From assembly GCF_021730615.1 (NCBI RefSeq), contig NZ_JAJLMN010000001.1, forward strand, positions 2,232,501 through 2,296,500: 64,000 nt of DNA, given 5' to 3'. This stretch comes from Lichenibacterium dinghuense. GTDB taxonomy: Bacteria; Pseudomonadota; Alphaproteobacteria; Rhizobiales; Beijerinckiaceae. The translations under genes were made by a program, and so were the position numbers. The notes below the pieces were generated by a model. It ran no database searches, had not been told where the DNA came from, and saw only the letters and a program-made list of their open reading frames with translations. Of this stretch, positions 24,135 through 41,239 are shown in pieces; positions within the stretch are counted from its first letter, which is position 1; each line of letters opens with the position of its first letter.

Positions 24135-24137
24135 GGT

Positions 24138-25028: not shown

Positions 25029-25052
25029 GACCGCCCCCCATCGTGCCCAAAC

Positions 25053-26300
25053 TCACGCATGGCCGAGCTCCGCGCAGCTGCGGAGGTGGAGTTCGTCGGG
25101 GGCCTCGGTCGACAGGACGGAGAACACATCCTCGGGACTAGCCATGTCCTTCGACTTCGATGTGATGATGAACACCGACTGGACGGCTTGGTGATCACAG
25201 GCCCGGTAATATTCGGGACCCTTGTAGAAGTCGTAGCGGAGCGCCTGCAGCGCGTCCACGACCCGCTCGGTATCGGCCGTACCGGCCGCCTTCACGGCGG
25301 CGAGCACGCTGCGCACGCCGCCGTAGGCCATGCTGCCGTAATCGGTCGGCACACGGCCGCCATTGCGCTGGCGGAACGCGTCGTTGAAGCTCTTCGCCGT
25401 GGGGATGGTGCTCTCCAGCCCCCAATAATAGGACGTGCCGCCGACTACGCCCTCGAAGGCTGCGGGTCCGCCCGCCACCCTCGCGGTATGGACCAGGATC
25501 GGTGTGATGATCTTGATGTTGCGCTTCAGTCCGAAGTCCGCGGCCTGCTTGACGGCGATCTGCTGGTCCCGACCGAAGTTGCAAAGGCACAGGATGTCGG
25601 GCTTGAGCGCCTGGATGCGGGGCATCAGCGTCGAAAAATCCGTGGTGCCGATCGGGTGGCTGATGTCGGCGAGGGTCATGACGCCCATGGCGTCGCCGAC
25701 CGCCTGGAAGCCGCGTACCATCTCGTGCCCATAGGCGTAGTCGGCCGTCAGGTAGACGACCCTCTTGCCAAACCGACCAAAGGCATAGCGGCCCACCGCG
25801 CCCGCGGTCATGTGCGGGTTCAGGGCCTCGTGGAACGTGTAGCGGCTGAAGTCCTTCGCCTCGTTGATGACGTCCGACTGGCTGATCGAATTGAACAGGA
25901 CCTTGCGCTCGCGCGTGATGTTGTTGACCGCGAGCTGAACGGAGGCCGACAGGCCCCCGACGATGAAGTCGACCTTCTCGCTCTCGATCAGCTCCAGCGT
26001 GCGGGTGGCGGCCTCGCCGGGGTTCAGCTTATCGTCCCGCACCAGCAGTTCGGCCTGCCGCCCAGCGAGGCCGCCCGCTTCGTTGAACTGCGCGACCGCG
26101 AGTTGGGCGGCCGCCACCTGGTTCTGCGCTTCGGCGCCGTAGGGTCCCGTCAGCGGGGTCGGGAAGCCGATCCTGATCGGTCGCTCCTGCGCACGCGCGC
26201 TGCGGACGCCGAAAGGCGTCGCCGCGAAAGCGAGGGCGCCGGCCGCGGCCGTGAGCACCGCCCTGCGTCCCACGGCGTCCGACGCGGCTTCGTCCACCAT
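25053..26300 (-). CDS. ABC transporter substrate-binding protein (HAAT family, system 1)
   Basis: A 415-residue periplasmic binding protein. The N-terminus has a Tat-like signal (GRRAVLTAAAGALAFAAT, cleavage near ARAQ), followed by the Leu/Ile/Val-binding-protein-type fold: IRIGFPTPLTGPYG, DDKLNPGEAATRTLELI and LTADYAYGHEM. It captures the substrate for the LivHMGF complex. Relatives next to aromatic pathway genes often bind aromatic or heterocyclic acids, so I suggest the cluster substrate rather than an amino acid. Confidence 0.9.
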   Translation of the reverse strand: MVDEAASDAVGRRAVLTAAAGALAFAATPFGVRSARAQERPIRIGFPTPLTGPYGAEAQNQVAAAQLAVAQFNEAGGLAGRQAELLVRDDKLNPGEAATRTLELIESEKVDFIVGGLSASVQLAVNNITRERKVLFNSISQSDVINEAKDFSRYTFHEALNPHMTAGAVGRYAFGRFGKRVVYLTADYAYGHEMVRGFQAVGDAMGVMTLADISHPIGTTDFSTLMPRIQALKPDILCLCNFGRDQQIAVKQAADFGLKRNIKIITPILVHTARVAGGPAAFEGVVGGTSYYWGLESTIPTAKSFNDAFRQRNGGRVPTDYGSMAYGGVRSVLAAVKAAGTADTERVVDALQALRYDFYKGPEYYRACDHQAVQSVFIITSKSKDMASPEDVFSVLSTEAPDELHLRSCAELGHA

Positions 26301-26372: not shown

Positions 26373-27335
26373 TCATTTGATCGCGAGCGGATTGATGGGC
26401 GAGCCGGTGCCGCCCGTGATGACGAGCGGCGGCCCGCAGAACAGGAACTCGTAGACGCCGTCCGCCGCGCAGCTCTCGGCGAGTTCCTTGACGTAGAACA
26501 TCTCGCCCATCGTCAGGCCGATGGCCGGGATGACCACCCAGTGCCAGGGCTGCTGGACTTCGCTCGTCTCGTTGGGCCGGACCTCGACGCCCCAGGTGTC
26601 CGAGCAGATCGCCGCGATCTCCTTGGCGTGCGACCAGTAGCAGTTCTCGAACCGCACGCCGGGCGCGTCGCCCCCGGCGTAACCACCCCACTGACCTTCG
26701 TGGAGGCAGCGCTCCTGCTGGCCGGTGCGGACGATCACGAAGTCGCCGCGGCCGACCTCGACGCCCTGTGCCTCGGCGGTCGCGTCGAGGTCGTCGTTGG
26801 AGATGGGGTGGCCGTCCTCGAGCCACGGCACGCCCTTGTGGCGCGCCACGTCGAGCAGCACGCCGCGGCCCACCATCTTGGCGCGGGTGTGCTCGATGCC
26901 GAGCTCGCGCACGCCACCGCCGTCCACGAGCTTGGCGTCGAGCCCGTTGTACATCTTGTCGTCGAGGAAGATGTGGCCGAGCGAGTCCCAGTGGGTCGCC
27001 GCCTGCACCGGCATGTTCAGGGCGTCGTCGGCGAAGCGGAGCTTGTTGGTCTCGTCGAACCGACCCGCCACGGCGTCCGTTCCGGTGGCCAGCATCGTGT
27101 GGATCGGGTTCCACCGCCCGCCGAACAGGCCCGTCTGCGGCCCGTGGCGGTCGAGCGGGATGCCCATGGCGAAGACTTGGCCCTTGCGCACCAGCCCGGC
27201 CGCGGCGGCGATCATCTCGGGCGTGACGTGGTTCAGCGTGCCGATCCGGTCGGCCTCGCCCCACCGGCCCCAATTCTTGAGCTTCTCCGCCGCTTCGTAG
27301 ATGGCGGCTTTGCCGGCGCCGATATCGATGGTCAT
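26373..27335 (-). CDS. Cyclase-family hydrolase (kynurenine formamidase-like), long subfamily
   Basis: A 320-residue PF04199-type protein. The metal motif is ATHWDSLGH near residues 108-116, the form used by the long (about 300-residue) cyclase-family enzymes rather than the HxGTHxDxPxH of KynB. Further signatures are GRGVLLDVARHKG and GDFVIVRTG. The family hydrolyses amide bonds or opens rings (formylkynurenine, isatin). ATG 27335 is chosen since the upstream residues look like promoter translation. It heads the long transporter operon and is divergent from the Mo-hydroxylase genes, suggesting a ring-opening or amide-hydrolysis step of the pathway. Confidence 0.82.
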   Translation of the reverse strand: MTIDIGAGKAAIYEAAEKLKNWGRWGEADRIGTLNHVTPEMIAAAAGLVRKGQVFAMGIPLDRHGPQTGLFGGRWNPIHTMLATGTDAVAGRFDETNKLRFADDALNMPVQAATHWDSLGHIFLDDKMYNGLDAKLVDGGGVRELGIEHTRAKMVGRGVLLDVARHKGVPWLEDGHPISNDDLDATAEAQGVEVGRGDFVIVRTGQQERCLHEGQWGGYAGGDAPGVRFENCYWSHAKEIAAICSDTWGVEVRPNETSEVQQPWHWVVIPAIGLTMGEMFYVKELAESCAADGVYEFLFCGPPLVITGGTGSPINPLAIK

Positions 27336-27489
27336 CGTGGTGGGCCTGCTCGGATGTCGGGAAAGGGTCGCGGGCCGCGAGCGATCCTGGCCGGAGCGGA
27401 TGGACGCGCCCGAACGCTGCCGTCCCATCGTCCTCCCTCCCTCGCCCCGCCGTCCGCGGGATCGGGCATCAGCGGCCCGTCTTGTTGAC

Positions 27490-27503
27490 CAATCTATAAA
27501 TAA
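27490..27503. promoter_or_regulatory. Operator-like site A (TTATC-N4-GATAA family, degenerate)
   Basis: CAATC-TATA-AATAA in the divergent promoter region between the cyclase-family operon and the Mo-hydroxylase genes matches 7 of 10 arm positions of the palindrome seen at 30682, 31501 and 39730. It is in an AT-rich pocket within GC-rich DNA. Confidence 0.45.
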
Positions 27504-27565
27504 GTGTGAGATCGCGTCAAGCGACCGATCGAGCGCAGGCGGCGGAAACGATCAAGCGAGGTGTC

Positions 27566-28069
27566 ATGAACGAGGTCGGTGGAAGCGCCGTCGCGGCGCA
27601 GCGGTCGATCAGCGTGAACGGGGTAGAGCGGCGCGTCGCGGCGCCGGATGCCACGCCATTGCTCGCTGTCCTGCGCGATGAGTTCGATCTGCGTTCGGCA
27701 CGCTTCGGCTGCGGGCATGAGCAGTGCGGCGCATGCATGGTGCTCGTCGACGGCGTGCCGCGCTACAGCTGCACGCTGCAGGTCGGAGAGGTGGGGGATC
27801 GCGCCGTCGTCACGGTCGAGGGGCTCGGCACGCGGGAGCGCCCTCACCCGATCCAGACCGCCCTCATCGACGGGCAGGCCGGCCAGTGCGGCTATTGCCT
27901 GTCCGGAATCCAGATCTCGGCAGCAGCGCTGCTCGCGCGGGACCGCGCGCCCTCGCGCCGCGAGATCGTGGAAGCGCTGGAGCCGCACCTGTGCCGCTGC
28001 GGCGCACACAACCGCATCGTCCGGGCGGTCGAATGCGCGGCGAGGGCGATGGCCGGAGCGGATGCATGA
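27566..28069 (+). CDS. Mo-hydroxylase iron-sulfur subunit (NicA/IorA type)
   Basis: A 167-residue protein with two [2Fe-2S] clusters: the plant-ferredoxin-type motif CGHEQCGACMVLVDG ending in YSC, and the C-terminal helical motif GQCGYCLSG with CRCG. This is the small subunit of xanthine dehydrogenase-family hydroxylases of the two-subunit type (nicotinate dehydrogenase, isoquinoline 1-oxidoreductase). It passes electrons from the Mo centre onward. ATG 27566 follows a GAGG site. Its stop overlaps the large-subunit ATG (ATGA). Confidence 0.93.
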   Translation: MNEVGGSAVAAQRSISVNGVERRVAAPDATPLLAVLRDEFDLRSARFGCGHEQCGACMVLVDGVPRYSCTLQVGEVGDRAVVTVEGLGTRERPHPIQTALIDGQAGQCGYCLSGIQISAAALLARDRAPSRREIVEALEPHLCRCGAHNRIVRAVECAARAMAGADA

Positions 28070-30189
28070 TCCCGAACGCGCTGCCCCAGGGGCTCGTCGA
28101 CAACCCGCGTCCCGACCAGTGGGTCGCGTTCACGCCAGACCGCAGGGTGACGCTGAAGAGCGGCAAGGTCGAGCTCGGCCAGGGCATCCTGACGGCACTT
28201 CGGCAGATCGCGGCGGAGGAACTCGACGTCGAGCCGACGCAGGTGGGCCTCGTGTCGGGCGACACAGCGCTGTCGCCGGACGAGGGCTACACGGCGGGCT
28301 CCCTGTCGGTCGAGGTGTCGGGCGCGGCCGTGCGCCTCGTCTGCGCGGAGATCCGGGGGCGGCTGGTCGACGCGGCGGCGGAGCGGCTCGGCGCGGAGCC
28401 CGGCCGGCTGCGGATCGCGGCGGGCGAGGTCGCCGCCGACGGCGAAGCGACGGGGCTCGGCTATTGGTCGCTCGCCCTCGACCTCGCTTCCCCCGTCCCG
28501 GGGACCAGGGCGCCGAAGCGCGTCGAGGAGCACCGCGTGGTCGGCCGGAGTCTCCAGCGCCTCGACCTGCCCGAAAAGGTGTTCGGCAGCCCCTTCGTGC
28601 ACGACATGCGGCTGCCCGGCCTCGTCCACGCCGCCGTGCTGCACCGCCCCTGGCCGGGCGCGCGCCTCGCGAGCCCCGATGCCCTGATCGCCCGCGTGGC
28701 CGGGGCCGGCGTCGCGGTGGTGCGCGACGGCGACTTCGTGGCTTTCGTGTCGGACGGCGAGACCGCGGCCGCCGAAGCGCTCGCCCGCGCCTGGGAGAAG
28801 CTCGCCTGGGACGGCGGCACGCCGCTGCGGCCCGAGCACGGCGAGGCCGGGCGGCTGACGGAACGGCCGACGCGCGACCGCCGCCTCGGCGCGCCCTCCA
28901 TCGCGGACCCGCGGGCCGCCTTCCGCCTGAAGGCGCGCTATTCCCGCCCGTTCATCGCACACGGCGCCATCGGCCCATCCTGCGCGGTCGCGCTGTTCGA
29001 GCGCGGCCGCCTCGACGACGGCCGGCTCGACGTTTGGACGCATTCCCAGGGCGTGGTGCCCCTGCGCGACGCGATCGCCCGGGTCGTCGGGCTCGCGCCG
29101 GACCGCGTGGTGATTCATCACCGGCAGGGTGCGGGCTGCTACGGCCACAATGGCGCCGACGATGCCGCCCTCGACGCGGCGCTGGTGGCCATGCGGCGCG
29201 CCGGCGTCCCGGTGCGGGTGCTGTGGCGCCGAGAGGACGAGATGTCGAGTTCGCCCTTCGGTGCGGCCGGCGTCGTGGAGATCGAGGCCGGCTGCGATCC
29301 CGACGGGCGTCCGCTCGACTGGTCCCTCGACCTGTGGAGCCCCATCCACGGCTCGCGGCCGGGCATGAACGGAGGGGTGAACCTTCTTTCCGCCACGGCG
29401 CTGGCCGAGCCCTGGCCCGGGCCGGAACCCTGCGATGTGCCCGACGAGCGCGGGGGTGGCGCCGTCCGCAACGCCTTCGCGCTCTACGACCTGCCGCCGC
29501 AGGACATCACCCACCATCTCGTTTGGGACCACCCGGCACGGACCTCGTCGATGCGCGGGCTCGGCGCGCTCGCCAACGCCTTCGCCATCGAGAGCTTCAT
29601 CGATGAGATCGCGGTCCGTTGCGGGCGCGACCCCCTGGCCTATCGCCTGTCGCTGCTGTCGGACGGACGGGCTCGCCACGTCCTGGAGCGCGCGGCGGCA
29701 CTGTCGGGGTGGGCGCTCAACGCGCAGGGAGGCACGGGCTCCGGGCGCGGCATCGCATTCAGCCGTTACAAGAACAGGGCCGCCTATGCGGCCGTGGTCG
29801 CGGAGGTCGATGTCGACGACGAGGTGCGGGTGAGGCGGGTCTGGGCCGCGGTCGACGCCGGCCTCGTGGTCAACCCCGACGGAGCCGCGAACCAGGTCGA
29901 GGGGGGCATCATCCAGGCGGCGAGTTGGGCTCTGAAGGAACAAGTGCTGTTCGACGAAGGCCGGGTCGCCACCGCGACGTGGGACCGCTACCCGATCCTG
30001 CGCTTCTCCGAAGTGCCGGAGGTCCACGTGGACTTCGTCGGCGCGGCAGAGCACCCGTCGCTCGGGATCGGCGAGGTGGCCCTCGGCCCCACGGCCGCGG
30101 CGATCGGCAACGCCATCGCTCACGCGCTCGGCGTGCGGGTGCGCGACCTCCCGCTCACGCGCGACCGCGTCATCGCCGCCATGTCCTGA
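28066..30189 (+). CDS. Mo-hydroxylase molybdopterin subunit (nicotinate dehydrogenase-like)
   Basis: A 707-residue molybdenum cofactor subunit. It has the nicotinate-dehydrogenase-type segments KSGKVELGQG near residue 27, GAGCYGHNGADDAALDAAL around 355, and the C-terminal GEVALGPTAAAIGNAI containing the expected catalytic Glu. It hydroxylates a ring carbon next to nitrogen with water as the oxygen source, or oxidises an aldehyde. No FAD subunit gene follows, and the cytochrome c domains fused to the Pseudomonas NicB are absent, so the electron acceptor is unknown. It is translationally coupled to the FeS subunit. Confidence 0.9.
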   Translation: MIPNALPQGLVDNPRPDQWVAFTPDRRVTLKSGKVELGQGILTALRQIAAEELDVEPTQVGLVSGDTALSPDEGYTAGSLSVEVSGAAVRLVCAEIRGRLVDAAAERLGAEPGRLRIAAGEVAADGEATGLGYWSLALDLASPVPGTRAPKRVEEHRVVGRSLQRLDLPEKVFGSPFVHDMRLPGLVHAAVLHRPWPGARLASPDALIARVAGAGVAVVRDGDFVAFVSDGETAAAEALARAWEKLAWDGGTPLRPEHGEAGRLTERPTRDRRLGAPSIADPRAAFRLKARYSRPFIAHGAIGPSCAVALFERGRLDDGRLDVWTHSQGVVPLRDAIARVVGLAPDRVVIHHRQGAGCYGHNGADDAALDAALVAMRRAGVPVRVLWRREDEMSSSPFGAAGVVEIEAGCDPDGRPLDWSLDLWSPIHGSRPGMNGGVNLLSATALAEPWPGPEPCDVPDERGGGAVRNAFALYDLPPQDITHHLVWDHPARTSSMRGLGALANAFAIESFIDEIAVRCGRDPLAYRLSLLSDGRARHVLERAAALSGWALNAQGGTGSGRGIAFSRYKNRAAYAAVVAEVDVDDEVRVRRVWAAVDAGLVVNPDGAANQVEGGIIQAASWALKEQVLFDEGRVATATWDRYPILRFSEVPEVHVDFVGAAEHPSLGIGEVALGPTAAAIGNAIAHALGVRVRDLPLTRDRVIAAMS

Positions 30190-30203
30190 GGCCGACGGGA
30201 GTC

Positions 30204-30641
30204 CTATCCCGCGTCGCGCCGCCGTATCGCCTCTGGAATCGGCAGAGGCCGGTTGGCACTCTGCAGAAACTCGACGGTCGAGAAGACGAGATCCGCGTCG
30301 CCGATGTTCGTGAGGTCGTGGATCTTGGAGTCGCCGGCCGCGTAGGTGGCGTGCTGCGTTTCACCGGCCGCGTAGGTCTTCTCGTAGGTGCTCCCGTCAT
30401 CGTGGTTGGACCGCGCCCGACCCGCCGTGATGGCGGTCCAGAAATAGTCGAGCACGTGCTCGTGGAAGCCGATCCGCTCGCCGGGCGCGAGGCGGATCAA
30501 CCACACCCGCACCCGGTCCGTCTCCGACACGAGCTCCGTCCCCACGCAGCCGTTCCCCCGCGACGCGCGAAGCTCGGCCATCAGCGCTTCATTCATGCCG
30601 GTGGTTTCGGTCCGGTCGCCCAGCGTCATCCCTTGCGCCAC
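30204..30641 (-). CDS. Cupin-domain protein
   Basis: A 145-residue single-domain cupin with PGERIGFHEHVLDYFW (motif 1 with His-x-His) and GDSKIHDLTNIGD (motif 2 region). Start is taken as GTG 30641; ATG 30629 and ATG 30596 are alternatives. It converges with the Mo-hydroxylase gene and is divergent from TetR, with operator-like site B in between. It could be a small dioxygenase, isomerase or sensor; no family member of known function can be named. Confidence 0.75.
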   Translation of the reverse strand: MAQGMTLGDRTETTGMNEALMAELRASRGNGCVGTELVSETDRVRVWLIRLAPGERIGFHEHVLDYFWTAITAGRARSNHDDGSTYEKTYAAGETQHATYAAGDSKIHDLTNIGDADLVFSTVEFLQSANRPLPIPEAIRRRDAG

Positions 30642-30681
30642 GGTCGTGACTCCCCATAGAAGCGGTTGGACACCGCCTTGT

Positions 30682-30695
30682 TTATCAGTTGATCA
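30682..30695. promoter_or_regulatory. Operator-like site B between cupin and TetR genes
   Basis: TTATC-AGTT-GATCA matches 9 of 10 arm positions of the palindrome TTATC-N4-GATAA. It lies 41 bases before the cupin start and 70 before the TetR start, a typical place for autoregulation by a TetR protein. Confidence 0.6.
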
Positions 30696-30764
30696 CCTCT
30701 CTCGGCAGTGTCAAGGCGAAGGCGGGGTCCGTGAGCCCCAGTGAGGGGACGGGCGGACGTGAGC

Positions 30765-31511
30765 ATGGACCCGGTCGAGATCGCGCGTCAGACAAATGCG
30801 CGTCCGGCGAAGAAGAGCTACCGCCGCATGACGCCCGCAGACCGGCGGCGACAGATCATTGAGGCCGCCGTGGCCTATTTCGCCGAAGTCGGCTTCGACG
30901 GGGCGACGCGCGCGTTAGCGGAGCGGCTCGGCGTCACGCAGCCGCTGATCTACCGCTACTTCCCGTCGAAGGACGAACTGATCAAGGCCGTCTACGACGA
31001 AGTCTATATCGGACGCTGGCGTGAAGAATGGCTCGACGCGATCAAGCGACGAGACGTGCCGCTGCGCGATCGGCTGATCGACTTCTACGAGCGCTACACG
31101 GACGTGATCTTCCAGCCGGAGTGGATGCGGATCTACCTGTTCTCCGGCCTGCGTGGGCTCGGCATGAACCGCTGGTGGATCGCTTTTCTGGAGGAGCACG
31201 TGCTCGTCCGGATCTGCGCGGAGATCCGGCACGGCCTCGGGCTGCCGTCGCCGGACCTCGTCCCGATCCAGCCCGCCGAGCTCGAGATCTACTGGCTCTT
31301 CCACGGGGGCGTTTTCTACTACGGCATGAGGAAGCACATGTACGAGGTGACGCCGCACCTGCCGTTGCGCGAGTTCCTGGAGGCCTCGATCGACAGCTTC
31401 CTGGACGGCTTTCCGGCTGCCGTGCAGGCGGCCGTCGGCCAAGGGGATAGGGACGGTGTGGGAGCACCGTCGCCCAGCTTGATCCCGGACGCGCACTCCT
31501 TTATCGATTGA
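30765..31511 (+). CDS. TetR/AcrR-family transcriptional regulator
   Basis: A 248-residue regulator with an N-terminal helix-turn-helix (RRRQIIEAAVAYFAEVGFDG, VTQPLIYRYFPSKDEL) and a long all-helical ligand-binding domain rich in Trp and Tyr. ATG 30765 is chosen; in-frame GTG codons lie just before. It stands between the Mo-hydroxylase and flavin monooxygenase genes, and palindromes of one type occur near four promoters of the cluster, so it is the best candidate regulator of the catabolic genes, probably a repressor released by a pathway intermediate. Confidence 0.9.
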   Translation: MDPVEIARQTNARPAKKSYRRMTPADRRRQIIEAAVAYFAEVGFDGATRALAERLGVTQPLIYRYFPSKDELIKAVYDEVYIGRWREEWLDAIKRRDVPLRDRLIDFYERYTDVIFQPEWMRIYLFSGLRGLGMNRWWIAFLEEHVLVRICAEIRHGLGLPSPDLVPIQPAELEIYWLFHGGVFYYGMRKHMYEVTPHLPLREFLEASIDSFLDGFPAAVQAAVGQGDRDGVGAPSPSLIPDAHSFID

Positions 31512-31514
31512 TAA
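31501..31514. promoter_or_regulatory. Operator-like site C upstream of flavin monooxygenase
   Basis: TTATC-GATT-GATAA is a perfect 5-base-arm palindrome. It overlaps the TetR stop codon and lies 17 bases before the monooxygenase ATG, close to its ribosome-binding site (GGGGAGTGGG). Confidence 0.6.
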
Positions 31515-31531
31515 CCAAGGGGAGTGGGACG

Positions 31532-32746
31532 ATGGCGGCACGGCGCGCATTGGTGGTGGGCGGCTCGATGAGCGGCCTGTTCGTCGCCACGGCGCTGTTG
31601 CAGGACGGCTGGGACGTTCAGGTGTTCGAGCGATCGCCGGTCCCGCTGTCGAGCCGGGGCGCGGGCATCATCGCCCAGCCCCAGGTGCGCCGCACGCTTG
31701 GGGCGCTCGGCCTCGTGGTGCCGGACGGCTTCGGGGTCGACGTGTCCCGGCGCCAAACGCTGGACCGCGCCGGGCGCATCGTCGCCACCGCGACGGATCC
31801 GCTCATCGCCACGTCCTGGAACAGGCTGTTCGGCGTGCTGCGCGCGGGCTTTCCCGACGACCGCTACCACCTCGACCACGATCTCGCGGGCTTGGCCGAG
31901 GACGAGGGGGGCGTGACGGCGCGCTTCGCCCGGCAGGGCGAGGTGCGGGGCGACCTCGTCGTCGGGGCCGACGGCTTCCGCTCCAACGTGCGGAGACTGC
32001 TGTTCCCCACCGTCGAGCCGCTCTACGCCGGCTACGTGGCCTGGCGCGGGCTCGTGGCCGAGGAGGCGCTGCCGCCGGACACGCACCGGGACATGTTCGG
32101 CCATTTCAGCTTCGGGCTGCCGCCGGACGAGCAGATCCTGGGCTACCCGGTGGCGGCCGACGGGAACGAGGCCGGGGCGGGCCGCGGCCGCTACAACTTC
32201 GTCTGGTACCGGCCGGCCGGCACGGACGACCTCGCGCGGCTGCTGACGGACGAGACTGGGCAGACCCACGACATCTCCATCCCGCCTCCGCTCATCGCGC
32301 GGGCTGTGGTGGACGAGATGCGGCGACACGCCGACGCGGTCTTCGCACCCCAGTTCCGGACTCTGATCCGCCTGACCGAGCAACCCTTCCTGCAGCCGAT
32401 CTACGACCTCGAAGCGCCGCGGATGGCCGAAGGCCGCGTGGCGCTGGTGGGCGACGCCGCCTTCGTCGCCCGCCCCCATGTCGGGGCCGGGACCGCCAAG
32501 GCCTGCGACGACGCGATGGCGCTCGCCGCCGCGCTCCGGGCCAAAACCGACCCTCGGGCTGCGCTCGCGCGCTTCGCGGCCGAGCGAGGGCCGGTGGGGG
32601 AGCGCATCGTAGCGCAGGGGCGGCACCTCGGCGCCTACATGACGCGCGACTTCGCGACAGCCGACCAGCGTCTCCGGGCGGAGCGCCACCGCTCGCCCGA
32701 GGCCGTGATGGCGGAGACGGCCCTGCTGCACTTCCTCGCGGCCTGA
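31532..32746 (+). CDS. FAD-dependent monooxygenase, 2,6-dihydroxypyridine 3-monooxygenase-like
   Basis: A 404-residue single-component aromatic hydroxylase. The FAD-binding region reads ALVVGGSMSGLFVATALLQ, the DG motif LVVGADGFRSNVR, and the GD motif VALVGDAAFVARPHVGAG. The middle (AGYVAWRGLVAEE, GRGRYNFVWYRP) resembles the 2,6-dihydroxypyridine hydroxylase and NicC-related branch more than salicylate hydroxylases. It would add a hydroxyl group to an activated ring using NAD(P)H and O2. ATG 31532 has a good Shine-Dalgarno. This is the step expected after Mo-dependent hydroxylation of a pyridine-type ring, but the substrate is unproven. Confidence 0.87.
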   Translation: MAARRALVVGGSMSGLFVATALLQDGWDVQVFERSPVPLSSRGAGIIAQPQVRRTLGALGLVVPDGFGVDVSRRQTLDRAGRIVATATDPLIATSWNRLFGVLRAGFPDDRYHLDHDLAGLAEDEGGVTARFARQGEVRGDLVVGADGFRSNVRRLLFPTVEPLYAGYVAWRGLVAEEALPPDTHRDMFGHFSFGLPPDEQILGYPVAADGNEAGAGRGRYNFVWYRPAGTDDLARLLTDETGQTHDISIPPPLIARAVVDEMRRHADAVFAPQFRTLIRLTEQPFLQPIYDLEAPRMAEGRVALVGDAAFVARPHVGAGTAKACDDAMALAAALRAKTDPRAALARFAAERGPVGERIVAQGRHLGAYMTRDFATADQRLRAERHRSPEAVMAETALLHFLAA

Positions 32747-32751
32747 ATAGC

Positions 32752-32777
32752 CCGCGCCGCCGTGCGCGGCGGCGCGG
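32752..32777. terminator. Bidirectional terminator hairpin
   Basis: An 11-base perfect stem (CCGCGCCGCCG and its complement) with a 4-base loop lies between the stops of the convergent monooxygenase and amidohydrolase genes. There is no T-tract, but the location and symmetry fit a two-way terminator. Confidence 0.6.
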
Positions 32778-32784
32778 CGACCCG

Positions 32785-33858
32785 CTACAGGTTCAGGAGC
32801 CGCTTGGCGTTCCCGCCGCAGATCGCCTCGACCGCGGCTTCGTCGAGCTTCGAGCCGACGATGTGGCCGACCGGGTCGTATTCGCCCATGTCGAAGGGAT
32901 CGTCGGTCCCCATCAGGACGTGGTCGGCGCCGAACAGGGTCACGAGGTTCTCGAGCTGGCCGGGCGTGAACACCACGGAGTCGACGTAGACCTTCTTGAG
33001 GTAGCTCGAGGGCGGGTTGGGCAGGTCGCCTCGGCAGTCCGAGCGCGCTCCCCAGGCATGATCGATGCGGCCCCAATATCCCCCAACGAAGCCGCCGCCG
33101 TGGGCCGCGACGATCTTCAGCGCGGGATAGCGCTCCAGCACGCCGTCGAAGATGAGGTGATGCAGGGCCAGCGTCGTCTCCAGCGGGTTGCCGATCACGT
33201 TGTTGAAGTAGAAGCGCTGGAAGCGCGCCCCCTCGGTGAAGCCGTTGGGATGGATGAAAACTGTCGCCCCGAGTTCCTCCGCGCGCTTCCAGAACGGCTC
33301 GTGGGACGGGTCGGATACCTCGCGCCCGGCGAGCGTGGTCAGGATCTGCACGCCCTTGAAGCCGAGCTCGTTTACGCAGCGGTCGAGCTCCCGCACGGCC
33401 AGTTCGGCGTCCTGCATCGGCACGGTGCCGAAGGCGACGAAGCGGTCCGGCCTTCGGGCGACGAAGTCGCGCAGGCCGTCGTTGACGAGCCGCGCCGCCT
33501 CGGCGCCGACCTCGCCGGATACCGCGTAGCAGCACTGGTTGGGCGTCGGCATGACGAGCTGCATGTCCACCCCCATGGCGTCGAGGTTGCGGATCCTGTG
33601 GTCCTGGTCGAACAGGCGCACCTTCACATCCTCGTCCTGCCGGTCGTTGACGGCGCGCGTTTCCGGCGTCTGCCAGCGGGCGAGCGGGATCGTGTCCATG
33701 TCGAGGTGCGGCTTCAGGAAGGCACCGGCCGCCGCGACCGCGATGTGGGCATGGGCATCGAAGGTGAGGCTTCGCGGGCGGAACTGCCGCCCAGGCTTGT
33801 CGTGGCTACGCGCTTCGGTGGCGACGTAGCGGTTCCAGATCTCGGTCGTTGCGGTCAT
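32785..33858 (-). CDS. Amidohydrolase-family protein (ACMSD-like decarboxylase/hydrolase)
   Basis: A 357-residue amidohydrolase_2 (PF04909) protein: FDAHAHI with the metal His pair near residue 35, VMPTPNQCCYAV, FIHPNG, AHGGGFVGGYWGR and GTDDPFDMGEY with the final Asp. The family includes ACMS decarboxylase, resorcylate decarboxylases and 3,6-dihydroxypicolinate decarboxylase (PicC), so a decarboxylation or ring-product hydrolysis is likely. ATG 33858 is chosen. It is last in line after the second Liv transporter on the minus strand, though a hairpin separates them. Confidence 0.85.
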   Translation of the reverse strand: MTATTEIWNRYVATEARSHDKPGRQFRPRSLTFDAHAHIAVAAAGAFLKPHLDMDTIPLARWQTPETRAVNDRQDEDVKVRLFDQDHRIRNLDAMGVDMQLVMPTPNQCCYAVSGEVGAEAARLVNDGLRDFVARRPDRFVAFGTVPMQDAELAVRELDRCVNELGFKGVQILTTLAGREVSDPSHEPFWKRAEELGATVFIHPNGFTEGARFQRFYFNNVIGNPLETTLALHHLIFDGVLERYPALKIVAAHGGGFVGGYWGRIDHAWGARSDCRGDLPNPPSSYLKKVYVDSVVFTPGQLENLVTLFGADHVLMGTDDPFDMGEYDPVGHIVGSKLDEAAVEAICGGNAKRLLNL

Positions 33859-33884
33859 GGGATGTGATGCTCCTGATATCAGCC

Positions 33885-33910
33885 GCCGTCGACGGTGGAT
33901 CGTCGACGGC
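33885..33910. terminator. Hairpin between Liv system 2 and amidohydrolase
   Basis: GCCGTCGAC-N8-GTCGACGGC, a perfect 9-base stem, lies in the 157-base gap after the second livF and 27 bases before the amidohydrolase start. It may end most transporter transcripts or act as an operator for the amidohydrolase gene. Confidence 0.45.
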
Positions 33911-34015
33911 TGGTCACGCCGCACGAGCGGCGGCGCGCATTCGCGCTGGCCAGCGGCTGGAAGATCCGACCGCTCGCACGAGAGGTGAAGGGACCGGGGC
34001 GGGGCGGCCATCCCG

Positions 34016-34735
34016 TCAGAACACCCCGAGGTGTTGCGCGATCGTCGCCTCGTCGGCGGCGAGCGCCGCGGCCGTGCCGGTGAAGACCACGGAGCCCGTG
34101 TTGATGAGAGCGACGTCGTCACAGAGCTCGAGCGCCAGCTTGATGTTCTGCTCGACCAGCACGATCGACAGGCCTTCGCCCCTCAGCCGTGCGATGATTC
34201 GCCCGACCTCGGCCACGATCTGCGGCGCGAGACCTTCCGAAGGCTCGTCCATCAGGAGCACGCGGGGGTTGGTCATGAGCGCGCGGCCGATGGCGAGCAT
34301 CTGCTGCTCCCCGCCCGACATCAGGCCCGCATGCTGCGACTGCCGCTCGCGCAGGCGCGGAAACATCGCGAAGACCGAGTCGAGCGACCAGGCCACCGGC
34401 GCGTCCTTCGCGGGCCGGCGCGCCGCCACCGCGAGGTTCTCGCGCACGGTCAGGCTGCGGAAGATGCGCCGCCCCTGCGGCACGATCGCGACGCGCCTCG
34501 ACGCCATGGCTTCGGGCGAAGGGCGGCGGACGGTCTCGCCCGCCACGGCGATGCTGCCCCCGCGCGTCTGCACGAGCCCCACGATGGCGTTGAGGCAGGT
34601 GGACTTGCCGGCGCCGTTGCGCCCGAGCAGGCCCAGCAGGCGCCCCGCCCCGAGGCGCAGCGACACGCCGTGCAACACGTGGCTGTCGCCGTAGAAGGCC
34701 TGGACGGCGGACAGGGCGAGGATGTCAGTGGCCAA
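34016..34735 (-). CDS. livF: Liv-type ABC transporter ATP-binding protein LivF (system 2)
   Basis: A 239-residue ATPase with Walker A GRNGAGKST, signature MSGGEQQ, Walker B VLLMDEPSEGL and IVLVEQN. No ATG or GTG precedes the family N-terminus; TTG 34735, inside the last codons of livG, is the best start, overlapping by 11 bases. It drives the second HAAT-type importer of the cluster. Confidence 0.88.
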   Translation of the reverse strand: MATDILALSAVQAFYGDSHVLHGVSLRLGAGRLLGLLGRNGAGKSTCLNAIVGLVQTRGGSIAVAGETVRRPSPEAMASRRVAIVPQGRRIFRSLTVRENLAVAARRPAKDAPVAWSLDSVFAMFPRLRERQSQHAGLMSGGEQQMLAIGRALMTNPRVLLMDEPSEGLAPQIVAEVGRIIARLRGEGLSIVLVEQNIKLALELCDDVALINTGSVVFTGTAAALAADEATIAQHLGVF

Positions 34736-35474
34736 GGTACACCTCGCGGGTGCGCGGGTCGGCGACGACGTCGGCGCGGGAGCCTTCCACGACCACCTCA
34801 CCGAAGTTGAGCAGGGTGATCCGGTCCGCGAAGCCCAGCGCGACATCCATGTCGTGCTCGATCATCAGCACGGTGACGTCACGCGGGATCTCCGACAGCA
34901 GGCGCGCGATGTCGTGGCGCTCGTCGCTCGACAGGCCCGCGAAGGGCTCGTCGAGCAGCAGCACCTTCGGTTCCTGCGCCAGCGCCATGGCGATCTCGAT
35001 GCGCCGACGCTCGCCGTAGGAGGTTTCGGACAGGAGCCGATGCCTGAGGTGGGCGAGGCCGACGCGGGCCAGGGCGGCCTCGGCCCGCTCGGCGAGGGCA
35101 TGCTGGCGGTCGAGCGAGACGAAGGGATTCCAGCGCAGCGGGGACAGGCCGAGCAGCGCCAGCGTGACGTTGCGCAGGATCGTGTCCGCGCCGAACAGCG
35201 TGATGATCTGGTAGGTGCGGGCGAGGCCGAGGTGGGCGCGCGCCCGGCTCGGCTCCCGCGTGATGTTTTGCCCCATCAGCGAGATCGTGCCGCTCGTCGG
35301 CCGGAGGTCGCCGGTGATCTGGTTGAACAGCGTCGTCTTGCCCGCGCCGTTCGGCCCGATGATCAGGCGACGCTCGCCGGGCTCCACGGTCATGTCGACG
35401 TCACGGGTGACCTTGAGGCCGCCGAAGTTCTTGCTGAGGCCGCGGATGGCGAGGGCGCTCGTGGACGCGGTCAT
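34725..35474 (-). CDS. livG: Liv-type ABC transporter ATP-binding protein LivG (system 2)
   Basis: A 249-residue ATPase with Walker A GPNGAGKTT, YGERRRIEIAMAL in the signature position, Walker B VLLLDEPFAGL and VLMIEHDMD. ATG 35474 overlaps the livM stop by 4 bases. The very long frame upstream of this start is antisense to other frames of livM and is not used. Confidence 0.9.
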   Translation of the reverse strand: MTASTSALAIRGLSKNFGGLKVTRDVDMTVEPGERRLIIGPNGAGKTTLFNQITGDLRPTSGTISLMGQNITREPSRARAHLGLARTYQIITLFGADTILRNVTLALLGLSPLRWNPFVSLDRQHALAERAEAALARVGLAHLRHRLLSETSYGERRRIEIAMALAQEPKVLLLDEPFAGLSSDERHDIARLLSEIPRDVTVLMIEHDMDVALGFADRITLLNFGEVVVEGSRADVVADPRTREVYLGH

Positions 35475-36508
35475 CGGCCCGCCTCGGCGCGGACGCGCAG
35501 TTCGCGGGGCTGCTCGGAGGCTCCCTCGGATGCCGGCACCTCCGCCTTCCCAGGCCCGCACAGGCCGCGGTAGGCGGAGCGGACGAGCCGGGCCGTGCCT
35601 GGCACGAGCCCTTCGGGCATGAAGCTGATGATCAGCACGAAGACGATGCCGAGGACCATGTTCCACCGCTCGACGTAGGCGCTGACCACGTTCTTCATGA
35701 TCACGACGAGGGCGGCTCCCACGACGGGGCCGGCCAGGGTCGCGGTACCGCCCGAGATGACCATCAGCAGCACTTCGGCGGAGCTCTGCAGCGACATCAC
35801 CTGAGGGCTGATGAACTGGTTGTAGTAGACGAACAGCAGGCCCGCGACCGCGCTCCAGAAACCCGACAACGTGAAAGCTAGGAAGCGGATCGTCCACACG
35901 TCGAAGCCCAGCGCGCTCATGCGGCGGGGCTGGTCGCGCGTGCCGCGCAGGCTCGCCCCAAAGGGCGAGCGCACGAACAGCACCATGGAAGCCGCGCAGA
36001 CGAGGAAGGCCAGCAGCGTCAGCCAGTAGAAGGCCGACGGGTCGGCGAGGCTCAGGCCCAAGGGCGACGGCCGGTCCGCCACCGTGACACCGTTGTCGCC
36101 GTTGGTGAGGCTGGCCCAGCGATAGGTGAGGCCCCAAAGGATCTGGCCCAACGCCAGCGTGATCATGAGGAAGCCGATGCCCGTCGCCCTGAGCGACAGC
36201 ACGGCGAACAACGCCGACATCAGCACCGTGACGACGAGCGCTGCCAGCACGGAGGCGAGTTGGCCCTGGCCGGACGCGAGGAGAAGGCCGGCCGTGTAGC
36301 CCGACACGCCGAACAGGGCGGCGTGGCCGAGCGAGGTGAGACCCGCGTAGCCCACGAGCACGTTGAGCGCGAGCGCGAAGACGGCGTAGAAGAGGATCTG
36401 CGTGGCTATGTTGACGTAATAGCTGTCCGCCAGCCACAGGGGCAGCGTGGCCAGCGCCGCCGTGCCGAGCAGCAGGGCTACGCCCTGGATGACGTTCACG
36501 CGGCTCAT
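35471..36508 (-). CDS. livM: Liv-type ABC transporter permease LivM (system 2)
   Basis: A 345-residue membrane protein with the LivM motif YAVFALALNVLVGYAGLTSL, about 9 hydrophobic segments, and a cytoplasmic charged C-terminus (about 35 residues, VPASEGASEQPRE) longer than that of system 1. It overlaps livH and livG by 4 bases each. Confidence 0.9.
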   Translation of the reverse strand: MSRVNVIQGVALLLGTAALATLPLWLADSYYVNIATQILFYAVFALALNVLVGYAGLTSLGHAALFGVSGYTAGLLLASGQGQLASVLAALVVTVLMSALFAVLSLRATGIGFLMITLALGQILWGLTYRWASLTNGDNGVTVADRPSPLGLSLADPSAFYWLTLLAFLVCAASMVLFVRSPFGASLRGTRDQPRRMSALGFDVWTIRFLAFTLSGFWSAVAGLLFVYYNQFISPQVMSLQSSAEVLLMVISGGTATLAGPVVGAALVVIMKNVVSAYVERWNMVLGIVFVLIISFMPEGLVPGTARLVRSAYRGLCGPGKAEVPASEGASEQPRELRVRAEAGR

Positions 36509-37368
36509 AGCGCCACCCGCCCGAGCAGGCCTTGCGGGCGCACCAGAAGCACGATCAGCATCGGCAGGAACAGGATGACGTAGGACAGATCCGGAAGCAT
36601 GGCCTGCCCGAAGTTATAGAGAAAGCCGATCAGAAGACTGCCGAGCAGGGCGCCGACGAGGCTGCCCGCCCCGCCGAGGATCACCACGATCAGCGCCAGC
36701 GGCAGCATGTCGGCGTCGAGGCCCGGATAGACAGACAGGATGGGTGAGCCGACCACGCCCGCGAAGCCGGCGAGGCCCGCGCCCAGGCAGAAGACGAACG
36801 TGAACAGACTGGACACGCGGATGCCCATGGCGCGGGCGATGGGCGCGTCATCGACGCCGGCGCGGATCATCGCGCCGAGCCGAGAGTGCTCGATCAGCAG
36901 CCAGAGGGCGGCCGCCACCGCGACGGCGAGGACCACGACGGCGAGCCGATACAGTGGCACGGTGGTCCCGAGCGCGGCGACGCTGCTCCGCAGACCCGCC
37001 GGGGTGCCGGGTTGGATGGGATCGCCAGTCCAGATCATGAGGCAGAGATCGGCGACGATGAACGAGAGGCCCAGAGTCAGAAGCACCTGGGCAAGCGGCT
37101 GGCCCGCGAGGCGCCGCAACAGGACGCGCTCGACGAGCCCACCCACGATCAGCGTCACGCCGGCCCCGGCCAGGGCGGCCAGCCAGAAATCGTATCCGCG
37201 TTGCGCCAGGCTCGCGCCCACATAGGCGCCGAGCATGAAGAACGAGCCATGCATCAGGTTGGGGATGCGCATCAGGCCGAAGATGAGCGAGAACCCGGCC
37301 GACAGGAGAAACAGCAGACCACCGAAGCTTATGCTGTTGATCGTGAGCAGCGACCACATGTCGATCAC
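36505..37368 (-). CDS. livH: Liv-type ABC transporter permease LivH (system 2)
   Basis: A 287-residue membrane protein with the LivH motif GGLLFLLSAGFSLIFGLMRI at the N-terminus and LLVRPQGLLGRVAL at the C-terminus, about 8 hydrophobic segments. It overlaps the binding-protein gene stop by 4 bases. Confidence 0.9.
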   Translation of the reverse strand: MIDMWSLLTINSISFGGLLFLLSAGFSLIFGLMRIPNLMHGSFFMLGAYVGASLAQRGYDFWLAALAGAGVTLIVGGLVERVLLRRLAGQPLAQVLLTLGLSFIVADLCLMIWTGDPIQPGTPAGLRSSVAALGTTVPLYRLAVVVLAVAVAAALWLLIEHSRLGAMIRAGVDDAPIARAMGIRVSSLFTFVFCLGAGLAGFAGVVGSPILSVYPGLDADMLPLALIVVILGGAGSLVGALLGSLLIGFLYNFGQAMLPDLSYVILFLPMLIVLLVRPQGLLGRVAL

Positions 37369-38603
37369 TCCAAGTTCTTCGCAGGCGGGCTGTCTTTCGC
37401 GTAGACCGGCTCCTTGAGGAATGTGGCCGGATCATAGGTCCAGAACTGGCTGACCTTCTCGTAGGTCTTGACGGTGGCGTTGACGAGCTTGCCGCCCTGC
37501 CGCTCGCAGCGCCTCACGAAGACATCGCCCACCACGTTGCCGTATGTGTCGAAGGTGAAGGGCCCCCGCGGCGTATCGGTCAGGGAAAGGCCCTTCAGGG
37601 CCGCCATGAAGGCGTCCTTGTCATCCGTCTTGCCGCCGAGTTTGGCGATGGCACCCTCGACGCATTGACCGGCGATATACATGCCGGCCGAGTATGCGCC
37701 GGGCACGACGCCGTAATCCTTGTCCATCGCCGCGACGAAGCGCTTGTTGCTGTCCGACCCGTAGTCGGAGGTGTAGAAAGTCGACGAATAGGCGCCGACG
37801 GCCTCGTCTCCGAAGCTTTTCAGCAGCGCGTCGTCGAAGGCCGTCCACCCGCCGGTGACCGGCACCTTGCCCTTGAGGCCGACGTCAGCGTAGGCGCGCA
37901 GGAACTTCAGTGGGTTCGAGCCTGCGAAGCCCGTGAAGACGCCGTCGACCTGACCGATCTGGGCGATGAAGGGCGTGAAGTCCGGGGCGTTCAGCGGCGG
38001 CCACAGCTTGCGCACCACCTTGCCGCCCTCGTCCTCGAAGACGCGCTGGAACGCGGACACCTGCTCGTAGCCGAAGGCAAAGTCTTCGGAGATCGTCGCC
38101 ACGCGCTTGAGGTGCATCTCCTTCAGGGCGTAGTCGGCCATGACGTGCGAGCACTGGCCCGAACTCGCGGCCGGGCGGACCACCCATGGGTTGACATGCC
38201 GCTGCGTGACGTCCTCCGCCGCCGCGAGGCTGATCAGCGGAACCTTGCGGGCGCGGACGTAGTCCGTGACGGCCAGCAATTCGAAGGCGGCGAGCGGCCC
38301 CAGGATGACGCCGACCTTGTTGCGCTCGACGAGTTCCTGCGCCTTGGTGCGAGCGCCCGCCGGGTTTCCGCCTGTGTCGGCCGCAATGAGCTCCACGGCA
38401 CGGCCGGCGAGCGTGGAGCCTTTCTCCTTCAGGAAGGTCGCGAGGCCCTGTTCCATCTGCAGGCCGCCCTGCGCCAGCGGCCCCGTGCGGACCGTGAGCA
38501 GCCCGATGCGAAACGGCTCGGCCTGCGCGCGCAGCACCGCCGGCATCGCCACGACGGCGCCCGCGGCGAGTCCGCCTTTGAGGATCTGGCGGCGTGTGGT
38601 CAT
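37365..38603 (-). CDS. ABC transporter substrate-binding protein (HAAT family, system 2)
   Basis: A 412-residue binding protein with a twin-arginine signal (TTRRQILKGGLAAGAVV, cleavage near LRAQA), then FRIGLLTVRTGPLAQGG and a type I periplasmic-binding fold. ATG 38603 is chosen because the Arg pair then sits at the N-terminus. It precedes livHMGF of system 2. It is only moderately similar by eye to the binding protein at 25053, so the two systems probably take up different compounds of the same pathway. Confidence 0.9.
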   Translation of the reverse strand: MTTRRQILKGGLAAGAVVAMPAVLRAQAEPFRIGLLTVRTGPLAQGGLQMEQGLATFLKEKGSTLAGRAVELIAADTGGNPAGARTKAQELVERNKVGVILGPLAAFELLAVTDYVRARKVPLISLAAAEDVTQRHVNPWVVRPAASSGQCSHVMADYALKEMHLKRVATISEDFAFGYEQVSAFQRVFEDEGGKVVRKLWPPLNAPDFTPFIAQIGQVDGVFTGFAGSNPLKFLRAYADVGLKGKVPVTGGWTAFDDALLKSFGDEAVGAYSSTFYTSDYGSDSNKRFVAAMDKDYGVVPGAYSAGMYIAGQCVEGAIAKLGGKTDDKDAFMAALKGLSLTDTPRGPFTFDTYGNVVGDVFVRRCERQGGKLVNATVKTYEKVSQFWTYDPATFLKEPVYAKDSPPAKNLE

Positions 38604-38724
38604 GGTGTCCTCCCCCGACATGCGCGGCGCCTTTTGGCGTCCGCGTCCTCATCGTGGCCCACCGGGGATCCGGGGGCTGCTTCCGACCTGCCACCACCGT
38701 AGAAGCGGGCTTCGCGCGTACAAA

Positions 38725-39657
38725 TTATATGATCGCGCCCGCCCGATCAGATTGCGTGATGGCTGTGCCGCCTTCCGCCCGACGTGCCATCCCGGCACGG
38801 GCTTCGAGGACGCGGCACACGGCCGCCGTGTCGAGGTCCGCGAAGCCGCGCGCGAGTGCGTCGTCGTAGACCGGGGCGCTCGCCTTGAAGAGGGGAGCGT
38901 CGACGCCGAGTTCGGCCGCGAAGCGCCCGATGACGTCCATATCCTTCTGCCACGTCGACACTTTCATCGTCGCGGGCTCGTAGACATCCTCGGCCATCAT
39001 GGGCGCGCGCAACGCGAAGACGCGGGAGTTGCCGACGCCGGCTCCGACGAGCTTGACGATCTGGTGCGGGTCCAGCCCGGCCCGCATGCCCAACACCATG
39101 GCCTCGGCCGAAGCCACGTTGTGGATCGCCACGAGGAGGTTGGCGACGAGCTTCATGCGCGTCCCGTTGCCGAAAGCGCCGAGGTCGTGGGCTTCGCGCG
39201 CGAGGTCGGCGAAGGCGGGCATCATCTCCGCAACCGCGGCCGCCTCGCCGCTCGCGTAGAAGACCAGGTCCTTCACCTTGGCCTGGGCGCCCGTGCCGGA
39301 GACGGGGCAGTCGAGCGGGCGGTGGCCGGCCCTCGACAGGACGTGCGCGAAGGCGAGCTTGTCCTCGAGCGCGAGGGTGCTGGCGTCCGCGACGACCCGC
39401 CCCTCGGCCCCAGATGCCACCACCGCGGCCGCCGTCGCGGCCGCGGCTGCGGCGCTCGGCAGACTGGTGAGGATGAGCGGCGCGCGCCGGGCCAGGTCAG
39501 CGACGTCCGCCGCAGGAGCCACCCCGTCCGCCTCGGCCTCCGCGCGACGCGCCTCGCTCACATCGAAGCCGACCACATCCCAGCCCGCGGCGACGAGGTT
39601 GCGGGACATCGCACCTCCCATGATGCCGAGGCCGATGATCCCAATGCTGCCCTTCAT
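38725..39657 (-). CDS. 3-hydroxyisobutyrate dehydrogenase-like NAD(P)-dependent oxidoreductase (copy 1)
   Basis: A 310-residue beta-hydroxyacid dehydrogenase. The N-terminal Rossmann motif is GIIGLGIMGGAMSRNL, the substrate motif DCPVSGTGAQAKVKDL, and the catalytic Lys lies in GNGTRMKLVANLLVAI. It oxidises a 3-hydroxy acid (or reduces the semialdehyde). It lies first on the minus strand before the second transporter operon, divergent from a paralogue at 39759. Confidence 0.88.
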   Translation of the reverse strand: MKGSIGIIGLGIMGGAMSRNLVAAGWDVVGFDVSEARRAEAEADGVAPAADVADLARRAPLILTSLPSAAAAAATAAAVVASGAEGRVVADASTLALEDKLAFAHVLSRAGHRPLDCPVSGTGAQAKVKDLVFYASGEAAAVAEMMPAFADLAREAHDLGAFGNGTRMKLVANLLVAIHNVASAEAMVLGMRAGLDPHQIVKLVGAGVGNSRVFALRAPMMAEDVYEPATMKVSTWQKDMDVIGRFAAELGVDAPLFKASAPVYDDALARGFADLDTAAVCRVLEARAGMARRAEGGTAITQSDRAGAII

Positions 39658-39729
39658 GGCCCCGCCTCCCGCTGTCCCGTGACGCGCCGTGATCGCGCTT
39701 GTCGTGCTTACGGAGCATGATATCGTTTT

Positions 39730-39743
39730 TTATCGATAGATAA
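39730..39743. promoter_or_regulatory. Operator-like site D between the two dehydrogenase genes
   Basis: TTATC-GATA-GATAA is a perfect palindrome 15 bases before the start of the plus-strand dehydrogenase and 73 before the minus-strand one. It is the best match to the site family shared with 27490, 30682 and 31501. Confidence 0.65.
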
Positions 39744-39758
39744 ATAGCGGAGTGATCG

Positions 39759-40658
39759 ATGCACGTCGGAATCATAGGACTCGGCCGGATGGGGCAGGCT
39801 ATGGCCGAAAGGCTGCATGAGGCCGGGCACGTGATCGTGGGATGGAACCGTACGCCCGGTCGGCTGGATGGAAGCGTGGGCGAAGAGGCCGCGAGTCCGC
39901 GCGCGCTCGCCGACGGGGTCGAGGTCATCATATCCATGCTGACCGACGCCGCCGCGATCGAGGCCTGCTATCACGGGCTGGACGGCGTCCTGTCGGCGCC
40001 GCTGGCCGGCAAGCTCGTGATCGAGATGAGCACCGTACGCCCGGAGGTCGAGGTCGCGCTCGCCCGGTCCGTGGCCGAGCGCGGCGGGGCCTTCGTGGAA
40101 TGCCCCGTCGGGGGGAGCGTCGGGCCGGCGCGGAGCGGCAGCCTGCTCGGCCTCGCCGGAGGAACGGACGAGGACGTAGCGCGGGCCCGCCCCGTGCTCG
40201 ACGCGCTGTGCCGCCGGGTGGAGCATGTCGGCCCCGTCGGATCCGGCGCCAGCATGAAGCTCGCCATCAACCTACCCCTGCTCGTCTTCTACCAAGCGCT
40301 CGGTGAGGCCCTGACACTGTGCCGCCACCTCGACCTCGATCCCGGATGGCTGGTCGGCTTCTTCTCCGAGACGTCCGGAGGCGCCAACGTGCTGAAGGGG
40401 CGAGGGCCGGCCATCGCCGAGGCGCTGGCGGGGGGTGCACCGGCGACCACCTTCGACGTGGCATCGATCCGGAAGGACCTCCGCACCATGGTGGCCGAAG
40501 CGGGATCCCTCGGAGCCAGGCTGCCGCTCGCCGAAGCCACGCTGGCGGTCTACGACGAGGCTGCCTCGGCGGGCTGGGACGCGCGGGACGGGGCCGCGCT
40601 GCCCTCGTTCTGGCGGACGCGCCACCGACCCGCCGACGGCGCCGTCACGGCGCCGTGA
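39759..40658 (+). CDS. 3-hydroxyisobutyrate dehydrogenase-like NAD(P)-dependent oxidoreductase (copy 2)
   Basis: A 299-residue relative of the protein at 38725: Rossmann motif GIIGLGRMGQAMAERL, substrate motif ECPVGGSVGPARSGSL, and catalytic Lys in GSGASMKLAINLPLLV. It probably handles a different 3-hydroxy acid or a glyoxylate/succinic semialdehyde-type substrate. Its 3' end overlaps the convergent carboxymuconolactone decarboxylase-like gene by 14 bases. Confidence 0.88.
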   Translation: MHVGIIGLGRMGQAMAERLHEAGHVIVGWNRTPGRLDGSVGEEAASPRALADGVEVIISMLTDAAAIEACYHGLDGVLSAPLAGKLVIEMSTVRPEVEVALARSVAERGGAFVECPVGGSVGPARSGSLLGLAGGTDEDVARARPVLDALCRRVEHVGPVGSGASMKLAINLPLLVFYQALGEALTLCRHLDLDPGWLVGFFSETSGGANVLKGRGPAIAEALAGGAPATTFDVASIRKDLRTMVAEAGSLGARLPLAEATLAVYDEAASAGWDARDGAALPSFWRTRHRPADGAVTAP

Positions 40659-41199: not shown

Positions 41200-41239
41200 G
41201 GTGGTCTCCGGAAGGCGCGGGGGCCGGTGTCGAGCGGCG

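Follow-up and report, generated by a model that had tools for sequence, protein, structure and literature searches.

The 64,000-nucleotide stretch of Lichenibacterium dinghuense analysed here (assembly GCF_021730615.1, contig NZ_JAJLMN010000001.1, positions 2,232,501 to 2,296,500 of the forward strand; the window) carries a cluster of oxidative catabolic genes, a gene for a TetR-family regulator (tetR) and four copies of a palindrome, TTATC-N4-GATAA, here numbered as candidate operators O1 to O4 (Table 1). As the same sites accompany relatives of the regulator in many bacteria, the palindromes are very probably docking sites of TetR.

Four palindromes in the cluster

On recount, the palindromes at 31501 and 39730 match the motif at 10/10 arm positions and that at 30682 at 9/10, and the 7/10 match at 27490 was likewise recovered, all as listed in the initial annotation. 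The perfect motif occurs at two places in the 6.1-Mb genome, 31501 and 39730, both in the cluster. With at most one mismatch, 10 places (3 in the cluster) were found versus 1 for the reversed pattern, which was used as the control for composition, and with at most two mismatches 193 versus 102. Within the window, up to 3 mismatches gave no excess (39 found, shuffle mean 35.7, at least that many in 25 of 100 shuffles), so that a 7/10 match alone proves nothing; the signal resides in the near-perfect class. These counts agree with the earlier judgement that chance is unlikely, and an equal frequency of the motif in unrelated places was not seen in this genome.

Candidate sites were scored with a symmetric 22-bp matrix built from 157 distinct sites of 80 relatives' loci, excluding the window (consensus TWATTTATCRNNYGATAAATWA), in which both arms of the dyad are conserved and N4 is free. 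The four operators are the top four places of the window (Table 1), followed by the next non-overlapping place at 8.6; the maximum in 30 windows simulated by a first-order Markov model averaged 7.5 and reached 17.1 at most. The register 27490 for the fourth site scored -2.4 and was replaced by 27486-27499 (TGACCAATCTATAA), which ranks third. Since the matrix places 27486 among the top four, the fourth site is real, with a register 4 bp upstream of the one first proposed.

The sites lie 15 to 150 nt before start codons; one of the gene labels, the cupin, proved weak. O1 stands 66 nt upstream of the ATG of the 2Fe-2S subunit (27566) and, towards the minus-strand cyclase gene, 150 nt upstream of its ATG (27335). 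It overlaps the -10 element of a predicted sigma-70-like cyclase promoter (27520-27491, minus strand). From O2 it is 69 nt to the tetR ATG (45 nt to an alternative GTG) and 40 nt to the start of the cupin-like gene. O3 ends 17 nt before the monooxygenase ATG. Of the two divergent dehydrogenase genes, one has its ATG 15 nt from O4 and the other 72 nt from it.

A wider regulon in this genome was rejected on the scores of the seven other places with at most one mismatch, six of them scoring 3.8-16.6 and the seventh 27.0; L006 has an additional place, with a score of 18.3, close to one of the six. A longer pattern with at most 3 mismatches found seven places in the genome, two of them O3 and O4; because it misses O1 and O2, weak distant targets may exist.

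Table 1. Operators and genes of the cluster, in window coordinates. Targets are proposed; score, 22-bp matrix score.
Feature	Position	Strand	Basis or remark
Operator O1	27482..27503 (core 27486-27499)		between divergent cyclase and molybdenum hydroxylase genes; score 26.0
Operator O2	30678..30699 (core 30682-30695)		between cupin-like gene and tetR; 9/10 arm bases; score 25.3
Operator O3	31497..31518 (core 31501-31514)		perfect; overlaps tetR stop codon; score 28.7
Operator O4	39726..39747 (core 39730-39743)		between two divergent dehydrogenase genes; perfect; score 34.5, best in window
tetR, 248 aa, proposed repressor	30765..31511	+	TetR_N E=5.2e-16; recognition helix TQPLIYRYF
Branched-chain-amino-acid-type ATP-binding cassette (ABC) transporter genes, downstream of cyclase gene	21653..26300	-	Pfam; putative co-transcription
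Cyclase-family protein, proposed O1 target	26373..27335	-	Cyclase E=1.3e-19
2Fe-2S subunit of molybdenum hydroxylase, proposed O1 target	27566..28069	+	Fer2_2 E=4.7e-23, obtained with a longer reading that starts at 27506
Molybdopterin-binding subunit	28066..30189	+	MoCoBD_2 E=5e-45, MoCoBD_1
Small cupin-like protein, proposed O2 target	30204..30641	-	weak: Cupin_2 E=0.092, below Pfam cut-off
Flavin adenine dinucleotide (FAD)-dependent monooxygenase, proposed O3 target	31532..32746	+	closest solved chain 2,6-dihydroxypyridine hydroxylase 2VOU, E=4e-53
Second ABC transporter and ACMSD-like amidohydrolase, downstream of 38725-39657	32785..38621	-	Pfam; ACMSD E=5.9e-53; putative co-transcription
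3-Hydroxyisobutyrate-dehydrogenase-like protein, proposed O4 target	38725..39657	-	NAD_binding_2, NAD_binding_11
Second 3-hydroxyisobutyrate-dehydrogenase-like protein, proposed O4 target	39759..40658	+	NAD_binding_2 E=3.2e-35

Occurrence of the putative operator beside related tetR genes

The window protein scored 58.6 bits against TetR_N (PF00440; Pfam cut-off 24), which places it in the TetR family. Its AlphaFold2 model consists of helices only (mean pLDDT, the predicted local distance difference test, 81.0) and was matched in Foldseek by TetR-family chains with moderate template-modelling (TM) scores of about 0.5-0.6, in line with the all-helical fold of the family, which includes a separate C-terminal domain. 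O2 and O3 flank tetR, an arrangement shared with relatives, and are candidate operators beside the regulator's own gene.

The window protein was aligned with five relatives, and relatives' loci were fetched by TetR similarity alone; the best 80 of the 213 encoding a relative (39-63% identity) were used (up to 20.7 kb each, 1.416 Mb in total, some of them closely related among themselves). Within 3 kb of tetR, 68/80 loci had a site with at most one mismatch, versus 2/80 for the reversed pattern, and within 1.5 kb 40/80 versus 1/80; at this matched distance, none was found in 21 control loci of roughly equal size around other TetR genes. Anywhere in the loci, 74 of the 80 had such a site and 49 a perfect one. 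The total of 196 sites compares with 10 for the reversed pattern, so that roughly 1 in 20 may be due to chance. By crude open reading frame (ORF) calls, 146 of the 196 are intergenic even though coding calls cover 91% of the DNA; 179 lie no more than 300 bp upstream of an ORF start (a bare count without a computed chance level). Their commonest named neighbours are genes for a cyclase, an acyl-CoA-dehydrogenase-like flavin monooxygenase, the FAD subunit of a molybdenum hydroxylase, a tripartite ATP-independent periplasmic (TRAP) transporter, a histidinol-dehydrogenase-like protein and TetR itself; in Microvirga lenta (locus L041), a perfect site stands 24 nt before the monooxygenase start.

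Plasmids provided a set that had no part in training: the TetR protein matches 59 plasmid records, and 11 of the 20 listed were fetched. In all nine loci with the helix TQPLLYRYF, the best site scored 30.0-38.9; of the two with other helices, one had a best score of 17.0 and the other no score above 15. In four annotated Rhizobium plasmid records, sites are situated between cyclase and tetR and again behind tetR. Sites of relatives (e.g. L080, L083, L111, L152) are often paired at a spacing of 46-47 or 75-86 bp, and those of the window promoters are single; the preferred spacings hint at cooperative binding. Tandem tetR genes of the clade were observed in L014 (1501-2787), where both copies lie inside one 507-codon open frame, and in genome G165 (contig C42, 56990-58266).

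Specificity was also assessed over whole genomes. The fetched TetR loci of 14 named genomes that encode a clade member make up about 0.3% of the DNA and contain 12 of the 33 perfect sites in these genomes; no perfect site occurs in two of the 14. Five genomes of the same genus as the window have no close relative of TetR (best E no stronger than 1.7e-11) and hold 0, 0, 0, 1 and 1 perfect sites, so lone perfect sites do occur where such a relative is missing, and since 26 of 60 relatives searched have at least one, a lone perfect site means little. Among 385 genomes sampled from the class, 47 contain the perfect 16-bp form of the motif and 17, counting the own genome, a TetR match at E<=1e-30. 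Both occur in three genomes (G274, G368, G446), whose four motif places are all at most 1.4 kb from the TetR gene; the remaining 44 have the motif only.

In the Tet repressor, Arg28, Gln38 and Tyr42 read G+2, A+3 and T+4 (PMC7102968), and Pro39 contacts two adjacent thymines; AmtR has Ala at the place of Pro39 and tolerates G for T at that base (PMC2723105). Arg49, Gln59, Pro60 and Tyr63 were taken as the equivalents in the window protein, and over 112 proteins, the window's included, these residues recur in 110 (R), 109 (Q), 99 (P) and 99 (Y). Thinning to <80% identity left 72 proteins: 63 with a site according to a matrix that ignores position 2, and nine that were dropped for want of one. 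Of the proteins with Ala/Ser, 9 of 11 had sites with G at the contacted base of each half, versus 1 of 52 with Pro (Fisher p 2e-8, kinship ignored). The best tree requires at least 8 changes of the Pro39 equivalent, 5 of them forced by well-supported branches. On this alignment evidence, the bases of the motif change with the recognition helix of TetR. That the motif travels with the clade, sits by tetR and the same catabolic families, and covaries with the helix favours the earlier proposal of TetR as best candidate binder, with the cluster as one probable regulon.

Proposed repression of the cluster and alternatives

We consider TetR a dedicated local repressor of the cluster that acts at the four palindrome promoters, and give this reading, judged from comparative sequence analysis, a probability of roughly 0.88. 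A TetR dimer would bind the 22-bp operator at the cyclase/molybdenum hydroxylase, cupin-like/tetR, monooxygenase and divergent-dehydrogenase promoters, with each GATAA half-site probably read in largely the same way as by the Tet repressor, through the equivalents of Arg28, Gln38, Pro39 and Tyr42, and the half-sites spaced as for AmtR. Bound on or beside the core promoter, it would block RNA polymerase until freed, as is expected, by binding of a pathway compound to its C-terminal domain. O2 would provide for autoregulation of tetR, and control from O1 and O4 would extend to both ABC transporter runs, provided that these are operons, as their spacing and direction suggest.

Several observations weigh against this reading. 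At O1, only 7/10 arm bases match, and it alone has a detected sigma-70-like promoter, none being detected at O2-O4. The place scoring 27.0 outside the cluster exceeds O1 and O2; it lies directly against a copy of an insertion element that occurs in the window as well, and was taken as chance rather than as a further target. Six of the 80 loci have no site with at most one mismatch. Two of these, L046 and L117, have other helices and variant palindromes; the other four (L042, L087, L112, L113) lack sites despite a core helix common with the window protein. Low scores within the fetched DNA were likewise obtained for L012, L156 and L167, which have the same core helix; for L012, a perfect site was found about 2 kb from its TetR gene, outside the fetched locus. 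In Telmatospirillum (L112, L113, L099; helix TQPLLYRYFADK, same core), there is no good site near tetR (best 16.2, 11.3 and 13.8), and the Telmatospirillum genome among the 14 named ones has five perfect sites, none in its TetR locus. Because such same-helix loci without sites exist, the helix is no exceptionless predictor of a nearby site. Two of the 21 control loci reach 22.8 and 17.8, the former a point on this same side, so that lone scores in the low twenties are not decisive. Among the class genomes, the perfect 16-bp motif is missing in 13 of the 16 other TetR-bearing genomes and in the own genome. As to the covariation, L013 has Pro and yet G in both halves, the sole Pro exception, and in independent pairs 3-4 of 5 agree with none opposed, too few for significance.

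The insertion-element-like stretch lies at 59957-61096 of the window, where a 356-codon frame looks, from its translation, like an IS630-type transposase, and its 99.8% identical copy is on contig C4 beside the 27.0 place.

It is unlikely that TetR binds and activates, be it at all or some of the promoters. Such a role would also suit the paired sites at fixed spacings upstream of relatives' genes, and regulators of the HapR/LuxR type, close by profile, both activate and repress; the ends of O3 and O4 just before start codons and the overlap of O1 with a predicted -10 element are positions that suit blocking. Still less likely, the motif belongs to another co-occurring regulator, such as the LysR encoded at 42917 or a global factor. 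As the loci were selected by TetR, a companion regulator would have been carried along, and the LysR gene family is present in 11 of the compared loci (at least 40% identity in 5). No other regulator family, however, comes near the frequency of tetR there, sites stand directly before tetR in several gene contexts, and the bases of the motif differ according to the TetR recognition helix, at the very position that the helix residue would contact. The usual LysR site is moreover unlike a dyad of this kind. That the words are conserved AT-rich promoter elements or chance without involvement of TetR is highly improbable: AT-rich words do occur near promoters, and 3 mismatches gave no excess over shuffles, but a reversed word of equal composition is not enriched, the dyad is conserved in both arms around a free N4, and loci around other TetR genes had no site with at most one mismatch.

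An aromatic or N-heteroaromatic substrate is suggested by the enzymes of the cluster, whose resemblances are to dihydroxypyridine hydroxylase, ACMSD and an uncharacterised cyclase. On an Ancylobacter plasmid, the cyclase encoded next to tetR shares 66% identity with that of the window. Loci L053, L058 and L091 contain around tetR, as does the window, histidinol-dehydrogenase-like, short-chain dehydrogenase/reductase (SDR), cyclase, flavin reductase, amidohydrolase, Gfo/Idh and hydroxyisobutyrate-dehydrogenase-like families, a two-subunit molybdenum hydroxylase and an ABC transporter. Since gene sets differ between relatives, no pathway is named; auxin (isatin) catabolism was considered because of the cyclase, and a search of open-licence PMC papers for it yielded nothing decisive. 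Beyond O4, genes for carboxymuconolactone-decarboxylase-like, Gfo/Idh, flavin reductase, LysR, hydrolase and histidinol-dehydrogenase-like proteins follow at 40645-45979. This stretch has no matrix site, though these gene families carry the motif in relatives, and the LysR at 42917 may control its genes.

More broadly, we think it rather probable that an uncharacterised TetR clade of Alphaproteobacteria and some Betaproteobacteria governs modular oxidative catabolic islands (molybdenum hydroxylase, cyclase, flavin monooxygenase, histidinol-dehydrogenase-like and transporter genes) via one conserved 22-bp operator, with its code switched repeatedly by one helix residue, Pro going with T and Ala/Ser with G at the base pair contacted by Pro39. 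The proposed genetic switch itself is of an ordinary kind, and its binding sequence seems not to have been reported before, no description of the operator having been found in open-licence PMC papers. The consensus yields a list of predicted targets for a regulator clade of many soil and marine bacteria, beside oxidative catabolic genes, and identifying the inducer would help to name the pathway. The covariation of residue 39 and base 2 offers a direct mutational handle on TetR specificity; if the reading is true, the clade provides a natural series of variants from which to learn how specificity shifts among TetR proteins.

Comparison with known TetR systems

The Tet repressor belongs to the same family, and its operator tetO (TCTATCATTGATAGG) has the half-site GATA (PMC9736018), shared by the window sites together with the equivalents of Arg28, Gln38, Pro39 and Tyr42 in the clade. 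The window half-sites stand one base further apart, with A instead of G as the outer base and long conserved T/A-rich flanks, and the gene context is catabolic. Against the NCBIfam equivalog for the tetracycline repressor, the window protein scored 37.6 bits, far from the cut-off of 265.

The AmtR box of Corynebacterium, tttCTATN6AtAGat/aA, has its CTAT half-sites spaced six bases, not five (PMC2723105). The window sites share this TAT-N6-ATA spacing, and AmtR structures are among the fold matches of the window protein; the conserved C/G next to the core differs, as does the helix position with Pro in the window protein and Ala in AmtR. AmtR governs nitrogen starvation, and the window sites, which read TTAT-N6-ATAA, stand beside catabolic genes, which sets them apart from AmtR.

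The RutR box, TTGACC-N4-GGTCAA, resembles variant operators such as that of L014. RutR, a repressor of the TetR family, controls a catabolic operon and has a palindrome about 16 bp long (PMC10891134), the same plan as proposed for the window, and the window protein scored 28.3 bits against its NCBIfam equivalog (cut-off 368). Among solved relatives, the quorum regulators LuxR, HapR, OpaR and SmcR came out best by profile (E 3.8e-12), and they also rank with the best fold matches; their recognition helix differs in the alignment, and the score against the LuxR/HapR/OpaR equivalog was 25.1 bits, compared with a cut-off of 350.

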